DNA of 64,000 nucleotides. It comes from Bacteroidia bacterium. GTDB taxonomy: Bacteria; Bacteroidota; Bacteroidia; Flavobacteriales_D; Cryomorphaceae. The stretch lies in NCBI GenBank assembly GCA_030427905.1, contig JAUICL010000003.1, positions 62,001 to 126,000 of the forward strand. Direction: 5' to 3'. Under the pieces are notes generated by a model. That model was not told the DNA's origin and searched no databases. It was given only the letters and a program-made list of their open reading frames with translations. This document shows, piece by piece, positions 13,164 through 16,764 of this stretch. Both the position numbers and the translations under genes were made by a program. Position 1 is the first letter of the stretch; the number at the start of each line of letters is the position of its first letter.

Positions 13164-14975
13164 ATGCAAAACATTCGGAATATTGCGATTATCGCGCACG
13201 TTGACCACGGGAAAACGACCCTTGTCGACAAAATGATTATGATGGGAAAAGTCTTCGGAGATCACGAAAAGCCTGGAGAACTCATCATGGACAATAATGA
13301 TCTGGAAAGAGAAAGAGGAATTACTATCACTTCCAAGAATGTATCTGTTCAGTACAAGGATTACAAAATCAACATCATCGATACTCCTGGTCACAGTGAC
13401 TTTGGTGGTGAAGTAGAGCGTGTTCTCAACATGGCTGATGGTGTCCTTCTTCTAGTTGATGCTTTCGAAGGTCCTATGCCACAAACGAGATTTGTTCTCG
13501 AGAAAGCAATTCAACTTGGTCTAAAACCGATTGTTGTCATTAACAAAGTTGACAAGGAAAACTGTACACCTGAAGAAGTTCATGAGATGGTTTTCGACTT
13601 GATGTTCAATCTCGAAGCTACTGAAGACCAACTTGACTTTCCTGCTGTATATGGTTCGGCCAAACAAGGCTGGATGAACTACGACTGGAAAGATCAAAAC
13701 GATGATATTTCTCCATTGATGGATTCGATCATCGAGCATATTCCAGCTCCGAAAGTGGAAGAAGGAACATTGCAAATGCTGATCACTTCACTCGACTACT
13801 CTTCTTTTATCGGTCGTATTGCGATTGGTAGAATCAAGCGAGGCTTCCTGACTCCGGGAATGCGTGTGAATCTCATCAAAAGAGACGGACGGATCGAGAG
13901 TGGACGGATCAAAGAGCTTTTCGTTTTTGAAGGTCTTTCAAAGAAAAAAGCAGAGCGCGTAGAAGCGGGTGATATCTGTGCCATTGTGGGTCTGGAAGGA
14001 TTCGAGATTGGAGATACCATTGCCGACATTGAGAACCCGGAAGCCCTTCCTACGATCGCGATTGATGAGCCTACCATGAGTATGGTTTTTACGATTAACG
14101 ACTCGCCATTTTTTGGTCAAGAAGGAAAATTCGTCACGTCACGACACGTGAAAGAGCGTTTAGACAAAGAGCTAGAAAGAAACCTCGCACTTCGCGTTGA
14201 GCCTACTTCTTCTTCAGATTCATTTAACGTTTTCGGAAGAGGTGTACTTCACTTGTCAGTTTTGATCGAAACGATGCGTCGTGAAGGTTATGAACTTCAA
14301 ATTGGCCAGCCACAAGTAATCCTGAAGGAAATAGACGGTGTCAAAAGCGAGCCGATCGAAGAATTGCGAATTGACCTTCCAGAAGAATATTCAGGTAAAG
14401 CAATCGAAACCGTGAACCTACGTAAAGGTGAAATGCTAAGCATGAATCCGAAGGGTGATCGTATGTACCTAGAGTTTAAAATACCTTCAAGAGGAATCAT
14501 TGGACTCAGGAACTTCCTTCTGACTGCAACGGCTGGAGAAGCGATTATGTCGCACCGATTCATCGGTTTTGAGCCATTCAAAGGAGATATTCCAGAGCGA
14601 ATGAACGGATCATTGATCAGTATGGAGAAAGGGAAAGCTATTCCTTACTCACTGAATAATTTGCAAGATCGCGGTAAGTTCTTTGTAGATCCAAACGAAG
14701 ATATATACGAAGGTCAAGTAATTGGTGAGAATACACGTCCAGGTGATTTGGTTATCAACGTTACAAAAACTAAGAAGCTAACGAACATGAGAAGTGCCGG
14801 AGCAGATGATAAAACAAAGTTGGCTCCAGCGATCAAGTTTTCACTAGAAGAAGCTCTCGAATATATTCAAGCGGATGAGTATGTTGAAGTTACTCCAAAG
14901 TCACTTCGCCTTAGAAAAACACTTTTGACAGAAAACGAAAGAAAACGCGCAAAAAACGCAGCGTTAAAAGTCTGA
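13164..14975 (+). CDS. typA: Ribosome-associated GTPase TypA/BipA
   Basis: A 603-residue translational GTPase of normal family length. The G domain starts at once with the P-loop [12 protein letters not shown], then the switch I region [26 protein letters not shown] and NKVDK. EF-G-like domains II, III and V follow, then the BipA-specific C-terminal domain ([17 protein letters not shown]). BipA acts in ribosome assembly and stress or cold adaptation. The gene has its own promoter and a strong intrinsic terminator, so it is probably monocistronic. Confidence 0.97.
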
Positions 14976-15079
14976 TAATCAAGAAATAATTAACGGTGCC
15001 ATCTAAACATTTCGAAAAGCCTTGAGTTTTCGAATCTGTGGCACTTTTGTAAAAGTCTAGACAAAGACTTCGTCGAAAA

Positions 15080-15114
15080 AATACAGGGATTAAGCGAATT
15101 CCTGTATTTTTTTT
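15080..15114 (+). terminator. Intrinsic terminator after typA
   Basis: A 12-base-pair stem (15080-15091 with 15097-15108, one G-T pair) with loop AAGCG runs straight into a T-run ending at 15114. An additional perfect 8-bp inverted repeat, TTCGAAAA (15011-15018) with TTTTCGAA (15027-15034), lies between the typA stop and this terminator. Confidence 0.85.
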
Positions 15115-15292
15115 GTCCAATCGCGTACCCCCTGAACTACAGACAATCTTAAAATCCGTCGATCGAAACATCCCATTTGATTGACATGAATACCGAGTTC
15201 ATCGATTAAAGACCGAAAAATGCCCCTTTTGCGATTTCAAGAAACGGGCCCGAGCTGGTCGAATAGCACTTTATTTTGATCAAATCATGCCG

Positions 15293-15300
15293 TAACTTTG
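15293..15300 (+). promoter_or_regulatory. Bacteroidota -7 box TAACTTTG before structured RNA
   Basis: TAACTTTG fits TAnnTTTG; a TTTG at 15275-15278 lies 14 bases upstream, a bit close for the usual -33 element. The expected transcription start (about 15305) falls right at the first hairpin of the downstream structured RNA, which supports this as its promoter. Confidence 0.55.
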
Positions 15301-15303
15301 TCT

Positions 15304-15473
15304 TGTATTAATCCCGAAGGGGATATACAGCGAGGTTTTGGTTAGCCCGTTAGCTTATGAGGATAAGCTAACACCCGCAAGCAGAGTCCGGTCTTTAAAG
15401 GTTGTTTTAGATTGATTGGTTATCGATTCTCAGAATCGCTTTCATTCGGGCTCGCTTGCGGTTTCTTTTTTTT
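15304..15473 (+). ncRNA. Structured RNA, candidate riboswitch/attenuator or sRNA
   Basis: About 170 bases with no coding potential but dense secondary structure. Hairpin 1: TGTAT/ATACA plus ATCCC/GGGAT around loop GAAG (15304-15329). Hairpin 2: a perfect 10-bp stem GTTAGCTTAT/ATAAGCTAAC with loop GAGG (15349-15372). Element 3: a 15-bp stem with one bulged A (15375-15390 with 15447-15461), enclosing a small CGATTC/GAATCG hairpin (15424-15438) and ending in a T-rich run. The 3' arm CGGGCT (15447-15452) can instead pair with AGCCCG (15344-15349), giving a terminator/antiterminator choice. It sits 27 bases before the probable start of a BASS transporter gene. I do not recognise the family; an independent small RNA is also possible. 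Confidence 0.55.
15375..15473 (+). terminator. Intrinsic terminator ending the structured RNA
   Basis: CCGCAAGC (15375-15382) plus GAGTCCG (15384-15390) pairs with CGGGCTC (15447-15453) plus GCTTGCGG (15454-15461). The stem is followed at once by the T-rich run 15462-15473. The loop is unusually long (56 bases) for a simple terminator, which is why it is treated as part of a larger fold. Confidence 0.65.
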
Positions 15474-15500
15474 CTCTATAATTGGCGCCAAATCCTTTTC

Positions 15501-16430
15501 TTGTATACATCACTCGATCACATCTCAGTTCAGTTTTCAGACGGAAGTCTCGTACTTCTAAACATTTGCCTTGGCATCATCATGTTTGGAATCGCTCTTG
15601 GGATCAAACCTTCAGATTTCAAGCAAGTGGCTTTGAACCCGAAAGGTGTGGCCACGGGTTTTGTATCCCAATTCGTGTTACTACCGGCGCTAACTTGTCT
15701 TCTTATTCTAGCTCTACGCCCGCATCCAGCTTTGGCATTGGGAATGATTTTGGTTGCAGCCTGTCCTGGCGGAAACATTAGCAATTTCATCGCGTCAATC
15801 AGTGGTGGAAATACAGCACTATCTGTGGCGCTCACAGGTATTGCCACCTTGGTAACTCCCATTCTTACACCTCTGAATTTTGAGTTTTGGGGAAGCATCA
15901 TTCCCTATACCGCAGAGTTTATGAGGAGCTTTTCGCTCAATTTTCTTGACATATTGCAAACTGTTCTGCTCATTTTGGTCATGCCACTACTAATCGGGCT
16001 GTGGTTCAGATCTAAATTTGATAATCTGGCTGCCAAAATTGAAAAACCCATTCGCGTAATCAGTGTTTTGATTTTGATCGCCTTCATCATAGTGGGTCTA
16101 TCAAAAAACATAGACACGTTTATGGATCACATGGGCAAGGTGTTTGGCCTCGTTTTAATCCATAATGCCCTAGCGCTGGCGGCAGGATATGGTTCGGCAG
16201 TTCTCGCCAAGCTACAAGAAAAAGATAGACGAACTGTGGCCATCGAAACTGGAATTCAAAACTCAGGCCTAGGCTTAATCGTCATTTTTACGTTTTTTGA
16301 TGGAAACGGTGGAATGGCGATCATAGCTGCCTGGTGGGGTATCTGGCATATGATTGCTGGTTTTGGAATCGCCTATTGGTTTTCGCTTAAGGACAAACGC
16401 CAAAAGATCAAACAAAGTCCAGTTTCGTAA
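15501..16430 (+). CDS. BASS family (bile acid:Na+ symporter-like) transporter
   Basis: A membrane protein of about 309 residues with nine or ten hydrophobic segments and BASS hallmarks: NICLGIIMFGIALGIKPSDF near the start, LGMILVAACPGGNISNF and the later ETGIQNSGLGLIVIF. These sodium-coupled carriers move organic anions (bile-acid-like compounds, pyruvate, pantoate, thiamine precursors); the substrate here cannot be read from sequence. The start is uncertain: the frame is open from 15456, but that TTG lies inside the terminator stem, so I prefer TTG 15501. There is no upstream ATG in frame. Its expression may depend on the structured RNA in front of it. Confidence 0.85.
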   Translation: MYTSLDHISVQFSDGSLVLLNICLGIIMFGIALGIKPSDFKQVALNPKGVATGFVSQFVLLPALTCLLILALRPHPALALGMILVAACPGGNISNFIASISGGNTALSVALTGIATLVTPILTPLNFEFWGSIIPYTAEFMRSFSLNFLDILQTVLLILVMPLLIGLWFRSKFDNLAAKIEKPIRVISVLILIAFIIVGLSKNIDTFMDHMGKVFGLVLIHNALALAAGYGSAVLAKLQEKDRRTVAIETGIQNSGLGLIVIFTFFDGNGGMAIIAAWWGIWHMIAGFGIAYWFSLKDKRQKIKQSPVS

Positions 16431-16764
16431 CCAGAGTCAACCACCCATCTTCAGAATCGTAGTAGCCCTTGTTGTAGCAAAAGTGATAAGCCCTCCCACC
16501 CTTGGTTTGATATACATTTGTATGGTAATTGAAGTCATACCCCTTCCCGATCAGATCATCCTTTTTCACTCTTTTTTTATCATCGGGATTTAGCTCTGAA
16601 AGAATCTTGAGATTTTTCTTGAGCGTATAATTGATCTTGCGAACTAGAGCCTGATCTATTTCTGTGGTTTGATTGTGGAACGCGCTGCGACAGTAGCTCG
16701 AACAAAAACGAGCATCAGCCCTTCCCGAAAACTCATCGCCACATTGTACACATTCCTTTTTCAT
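16408..16764 (-). CDS. Small zinc-ribbon protein (DUF2116-like)
   Basis: A 118-residue protein starting MKKECVQCGDEF. Two CxxC-type pairs (CVQC and CSSYC with FCSSYCRSAFHN) form a treble-clef or zinc-ribbon at the N-terminus. A basic helical region (NPDDKKRVKKDDLIGKGYDF) and a short aromatic-rich C-terminus follow. Similar short proteins are common in Bacteroidota and have no established role; nucleic-acid binding is a guess from the zinc ribbon and charge. Its 3' end overlaps the convergent transporter gene by 23 bases. Confidence 0.75.
   Translation of the reverse strand: MKKECVQCGDEFSGRADARFCSSYCRSAFHNQTTEIDQALVRKINYTLKKNLKILSELNPDDKKRVKKDDLIGKGYDFNYHTNVYQTKGGRAYHFCYNKGYYDSEDGWLTLVTKLDFV

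Follow-up and report, generated by a model that had tools for sequence, protein, structure and literature searches.

A family-restricted, structured small RNA of about 165 nucleotides encoded upstream of a BASS transporter gene in Bacteroidota

A stretch of 64,000 nucleotides (hereafter, the window) from a Bacteroidia bacterium of the family Cryomorphaceae (GenBank assembly GCA_030427905.1, contig JAUICL010000003.1, positions 62,001 to 126,000 of the forward strand) encodes a structured RNA of about 165 nt, spanning ~15304 to 15473, immediately upstream of a gene for a BASS (SBF family) transporter. Judged from its sequence and that of its relatives, this RNA is genuine, conserved, structured, restricted to a single family and outside Rfam. 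The reading preferred here, to which we assign about an even chance (roughly 0.5), is that of a small RNA (sRNA) with its own promoter and terminator, which probably acts in trans through an invariant box and a near-invariant loop, and past whose terminator the BASS gene is reached by readthrough. The element belongs to a known kind, that of bacterial intergenic small RNAs and leaders, and is not a new type of system. Few small RNAs have been described in Bacteroidota beyond gut Bacteroides. The features of the RNA, all on the forward strand (+), are as follows.

15269..15300 (+): Bacteroidota-type promoter of the RNA, with CTTT at 15269-15272, a 20-nt spacer and the −7 box TAACTTTG at 15293-15300
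15304..15329 (+): P1 hairpin at the probable 5′ end; sequence variable, pairing maintained
15330..15347 (+): invariant box GCGAGGTTTTGGTTAGCC, identical in 7/7 genomes
15334-15347 (+): predicted small hairpin GGUU[UUGGUU]AGCC inside the box
15349..15372 (+): P2 hairpin, a perfect 10 bp in the window; sequence variable, pairing maintained
15375..15390 (+): 5′ arm of P3, the terminator stem, CCGCAAGC followed by GAGUCCG
15391..15446 (+): near-invariant loop domain within P3, UCUUUAAWGGUUGUUUUAGAUUGAUUGGUUAUCGAUUC-NYN-GAAUCGCUUU
15390-15393/15411-15414 (+): predicted P4 in the loop domain
15424-15438 (+): predicted hairpin CGAUUC/GAAUCG in the loop domain
15447..15461 (+): 3′ arm of P3, CGGGCUC GCUUGCGG
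15462..15473 (+): T-run of the intrinsic terminator, a T-rich tract after CTTGCGG in 7/7 genomes

The RNA was found by BLASTN as a single copy in its own genome and in six of the seven other genomes of the family (81-87% identity), that is, in 7/8 altogether, the only genome without a match being one whose assembly is incomplete (81%, 440 contigs). With a covariance model, the same seven genomes were recovered at E values from 1e-37 to 5e-49. Among 391 further genomes of the order, this model returned only three weak matches at chance level (G219, G209 and G117, from another family, with per-genome E values of 2e-4 to 0.009 in a set of 399 genomes), one of which starts just 5′ of the ATG of a MurD-like reading frame, and it gave no match among 394 further genomes of the class. 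An earlier note on this DNA had recognised no consensus in the region and had suggested a covariance search with Infernal against Rfam; in that search, the only match in the window at the gathering threshold of Rfam 15 was a tRNA, and at a permissive threshold the listing contained no match that overlapped the RNA, so that neither a known family nor a match of an unrelated type emerged.

Conservation is unevenly distributed along the RNA. The box, the outer part of P3 and the loop are held letter by letter, and P1, P2 and the inner part of P3 are held by shape only. The loop is almost unchanged over the seven genomes, which belong to five genera and encode BASS proteins sharing about 55-72% identity with that of the window, and its variation falls mostly at its edges and in the three loop nucleotides of the CGAUUC/GAAUCG hairpin. 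The sequences flanking the RNA are unalignable among the relatives.

Folding of 15290-15500 gave −73.6 kcal/mol against −49.9 ± 3.9 for shuffled sequences (z = −6.1; 0/200 shuffles). It could be argued that this is a chance fold or an unselected spacer, given that single-sequence folding alone is weak evidence of function; no observation speaks for such an explanation. The comparison of relatives refutes it, since long near-invariant stretches and compensatory changes extend over five genera between flanks that cannot be aligned. In the alignment fitted to the model, 92.5% of the cells were paired, 11 pairs had changed on both sides and the covariation score was 0.266, against 0.152 ± 0.017 for shuffled controls and 0.03-0.07, with 2-4 such pairs, for slid partners; this alignment is fitted to the structure and thus biased towards it, and simple inspection of the raw sequences also reveals the compensations in P2 and P3. 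In P1, three pairs had changed on both sides, and 90% of the cells of the main helix were paired. In P2, this was the case for 6/10 pairs, a count that understates the true pairing because the hairpin is shifted by one base in two rows of the alignment. In P3, the seven outer pairs are invariant, and inner pairs covary between C-G and U-A and between U-A and C-G. The promoter box, the hairpins at 15304-15329 and 15349-15372 (the latter a perfect 10-bp stem) and the long stem running into a T-run (15375-15390/15447-15461, then 15462-15473), which had all been pointed out before, are thus present, and the alignment of relatives that had been recommended revealed compensatory changes in P1, P2 and P3.

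The signals expected of an independent small RNA gene, a promoter and a terminator of its own, were both found at the level of sequence. The −7 box of the RNA matches 6/6 positions of the Bacteroidota consensus TAnnTTTG (PMC9723704) at a fixed place in 7/7 genomes, a result reached by 2-5% of shuffles for each genome, and the CTT of the upstream element, which reads CTT(T/G), is aligned in 7/7. On the other side, the covarying P3 is followed by the T-run. In this region, a simple scan for terminators reported only the small 15424-15438 hairpin, P3 having been missed because it encloses a loop of ~55 nt. It may be envisaged that 15304-15473 is transcribed from this sigma-A-type promoter as far as an intrinsic terminator of its own, the stem of which, P3, would also display the near-invariant 50-nt loop. 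P1 and P2 would act as spacers or shields, of which the shape and not the sequence is kept, and the box GGUU[UUGGUU]AGCC together with the loop would do the work of the RNA, most likely as surfaces recognised by a partner in trans, RNA or protein. The combination of a box and a loop fixed in their letters with P1, P2 and inner P3 fixed in their shape is the pattern of an RNA that is read by such a partner, and a trans function is considered likely. The motif UGGUU occurs three times in the nearly invariant parts, within predicted hairpin loops, a recurrence of uncertain significance.

A further observation that bears on this function is that the box is reused in separate RNAs of the family, namely L037, L043, L048 (G004), L041 (G003, one change) and, in the genome of the window itself, a weak copy, L040 (G000:C4:24326-24375). 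The match is to an exact 17-mer or to one with a single mismatch in L037, L043, L041 and L040, and to an overlapping 16-mer in L048. These compact RNAs share the box GGTTTTGGTTAGC, and a separate terminator follows in all except L040. Four of them (L037, L041, L043 and L048) form a compact three-way junction composed of a closing stem, an A, GGUU[UUGGUU]AGCC, a variable hairpin, AAU and the closing stem. Their contexts are unrelated: alone, ~280 nt before a phosphoenolpyruvate (PEP) synthase-like gene, or ~75 nt before an MltF-like gene. L043 lies between a divergent and a convergent gene, with no gene downstream, and therefore cannot be a leader. Downstream of L037, near-repeats were noticed (TTTTGAAGGGCTTCAAGAG... 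and AAAACAGTTGTC...) that would give a lysine-rich repetitive peptide if translated.

A compact-RNA model trained on these five RNAs found all of them at E 3e-11 or better and no further convincing copies. Outside the family, the exact 16-mer of the box occurred in none of the 391 genomes sampled from the order; five exact matches to the box were seen in viral contigs, all lacking the architecture of the RNA when inspected, and phage records held none. The independent sRNA that the earlier note had named as the alternative to a leader gains from this recurrence of the box, in one case without a downstream gene. It may tentatively be suggested, as a possibility held with some reserve, that a new one-family class of RNAs is involved, in which the recognition hairpin GGUU[UUGGUU]AGCC is common to the long RNA, also serving as the leader of BASS, and to the compact, free-standing RNAs with a three-way junction; together, these RNAs would constitute a regulon with a single partner, either a protein or a group of mRNAs.

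The region had previously been described as a candidate riboswitch or attenuator, in which CGGGCT (15447-15452) would choose between GAGTCCG (terminator) and AGCCCG (15344-15349, antiterminator). The region before BASS does encode a structured RNA that has a promoter box and a terminator of its own, whereas the specific antiterminator is not kept in the relatives. The AGCCCG x CGGGCT pairing is complete only in the window (1/7), with 3-6 of the 6 pairs possible across the genomes and a central C.A mismatch in 4/7, in which the 5′ part stays AGCCY and the 3′ part becomes GGAC. The terminator stem compensates for the same change (GUCC/GGAC versus GCCC/GGGC), so that selection keeps the terminator and not this antiterminator, and the proposed on/off switch is not supported. 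Folding of truncated transcripts suggested a second alternative pairing, between the box and GGUUAUCGA..UCGCU in the 3′ part of the loop. This pairing cannot show covariation, as both of its sides are invariant, and it was rejected for being no better than in shuffled sequences (p 0.06-0.14). Hence, in the seven genomes, neither candidate provides a terminator and an antiterminator that are mutually exclusive and jointly conserved.

The relation between the RNA and the transporter gene has to be considered apart from this switch, for which the remaining features of the locus are needed.

13164..14975 (+): typA/bipA, neighbour upstream of the RNA in its own genome (G000) and G001 only
15076..15114 (+): likely typA terminator, AAAAATACAGG...CCTGTATTTTT, by direct reading of the sequence
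15501..16430 (+): BASS (SBF family) transporter gene with a TTG start (PF01758, E 2.4e-32)
16408-16764 (−): hyp118, a protein of 118 aa that carries CxxC-type motifs and has no Pfam match

Between the typA terminator and the RNA there are ~150 bp without an obvious gene. The BASS protein matched TIGR00841 at E 4.7e-56, yet under the curated cut-off, and scored far under the cut-off of the PanS model; its nearest solved structures, 3zuy and 8oyf, are both listed as 'Transporter'. The nearest relatives of this protein, like the TAnnTTTG type of the promoter, point to a member of Bacteroidota. The likely start is the TTG at 15501, since the N-terminal MYxxLxxLDHI of BASS homologues from Bacteroidales aligns there, which upholds the previous placement of the start 27 nt after the T-run. 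The start codon is TTG in the window and the relatives (GTG in one) and ATG in most of the compared Bacteroidales homologues.

The RNA lies directly 5′ of BASS in all seven genomes that carry it, with 38-68 nt between P3 and the BASS start. The upstream neighbour varies, being typA in G000 and G001 and a different gene in G002-G006, and hyp118 is kept 3′ of BASS in the five family genomes whose contig reaches that far. Within the interval from P3 to BASS, the best promoter boxes matched 5/6 positions, a level attained in 39-71% of shuffles, and stood at differing distances in each relative. A separate BASS promoter was therefore rejected, the candidate boxes being at chance level, and BASS is probably reached by readthrough past the RNA terminator, irrespective of other roles of the RNA. 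In this way, transcription passing the terminator would supply the BASS mRNA, and the terminator of the RNA would also set BASS expression; the lack of a recognisable BASS promoter makes an effect in cis plausible.

From the same observations, it could be proposed that the RNA is a cis-acting attenuator or riboswitch, in which the loop in P3 senses a ligand, a protein or an RNA, and the formation of P3 decides whether transcription stops before BASS. The constant position before BASS while upstream neighbours change and the want of a recognisable BASS promoter are what such a leader would predict; moreover, a near-invariant insert of 50 nt is odd for the stem of a plain terminator, and the BASS genes of other Bacteroidota, which have no such leader, also differ in their mostly ATG start. 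Against this stand the two alternative pairings discussed above, the occurrence of the box module where no such gene follows, as in L043, and the lack of any Rfam aptamer or of a ligand clue other than the words 'BASS transporter'. This explanation is therefore regarded as rather doubtful. If the leader does control BASS, it would offer a hint at the substrate of this transporter subgroup.

A second explanation is that the sRNA gene merely adjoins BASS, whose promoter would be of an unrecognised type. The sequence TATAATTG at 15477-15484 could be such a promoter, as it lies 16 nt upstream of the start codon and fits the consensus at 5/6 positions; the compact relatives are themselves free-standing, and hyp118 is also retained beside BASS, so that the linkage may be plain synteny. 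The chance-level frequency and shifting distances of boxes of this quality weaken the proposal, which we consider unlikely.

The preferred reading, that of a trans-acting small RNA followed by readthrough into BASS, has several observations to contend with. First, the linkage to BASS in 7/7 genomes exceeds what an independent sRNA would need, though hyp118 is linked as well. Second, covariation is absent from the invariant parts, where nothing changes, and their fold is a prediction. Third, sites complementary to the box (14-mer, at most one mismatch) were not in excess, with 18 non-RNA sites against 42 for the reversed control, summed over eight genomes, and long antisense targets are therefore not a general pattern. 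Fourth, no RRM_1 protein was detected in the own genome, the Bacteroides control being positive, and thus the RRM protein RbpB is not a candidate partner there.

With regard to individual targets, two tandem lipoprotein genes, L075 and L080 (G002:C367), hold CAACAGACCUAACCAAAACCUCG at their coding start. The candidate duplex with the box and the G002-specific P2 arm comprises 17 + 6 bp at the translation start (−34.7 kcal/mol), and the two paralogues are nearly identical along the complementary stretch, with differing upstream sequences. In a background drawn from a 400-kb sample of genome stretches, 4/18438 windows reached −34.7 kcal/mol, two of these being the complement of the RNA itself. 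The energy thus lies within the background of unrelated DNA, and the duplex was rejected as an established target and is retained as a candidate only. A 13-nt complement of the box was also seen just 5′ of the ATG of a secreted-protein gene (L072; G006:C142:1273-1286). A well-supported RNA with long, nearly unchanged stretches and a reused box provides a concrete handle for a search for its partner.

Among the closest known systems are the FopS and GibS sRNAs of Bacteroides thetaiotaomicron, with RbpB as the partner of FopS (PMC11697453). Shared with them are the origin in Bacteroidota, a sigma-ABfr-type promoter, an intrinsic terminator and a seed common to paralogues. However, FopS consists of a 5′ single-stranded R1 seed and a terminator, and the RNA described here is of another architecture. 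A connection with RbpB, the best-studied Bacteroidota RNA-binding regulator, was rejected on this architecture and on the absence of an RRM_1 protein, no counterpart having been detected in this genome. Comparative genomics has also yielded candidate structured RNAs of Bacteroidota, such as Flavo-1 and Bacteroidales-1 (Weinberg et al. 2010, PMC2864571). Those motifs with Rfam models gave no match here, and the comparison did not extend to Bacteroides-2 and GUCCY-hairpin, which have no Rfam number in the PMC2864571 table.

A divergent 6S RNA, that is, a decoy of RNA polymerase, would resemble the RNA in being a single-copy, terminator-ended transcript of ~165 nt, and no 6S RNA was found by RF00013 in the own genome or by RF01685 (6S-Flavo) in the family, although the RF01685 control was silent, so that this second absence says little. 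The architecture is, however, unlike that of 6S RNA, which folds into a single long hairpin around a central bubble and has its 5′ end paired with its 3′ end, whereas here two separate covarying hairpins precede P3, the two ends do not pair with each other and no closed hairpin with a central bubble is formed. The 6S identity was rejected accordingly and is very improbable. Terminator-type riboswitches and attenuator leaders share with the RNA a structured transcript and an intrinsic terminator shortly before the start codon of a transporter gene, and the differences lie in the conserved antiterminator and known aptamer, both missing here, and in the presence of the box in RNAs other than leaders. 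Finally, decoy RNAs of the CsrB/RsmZ type carry GGA as their repeated element; GGA is not the repeated element here, and the likeness consists in the repetition of a short motif, which in this RNA is UGGUU.
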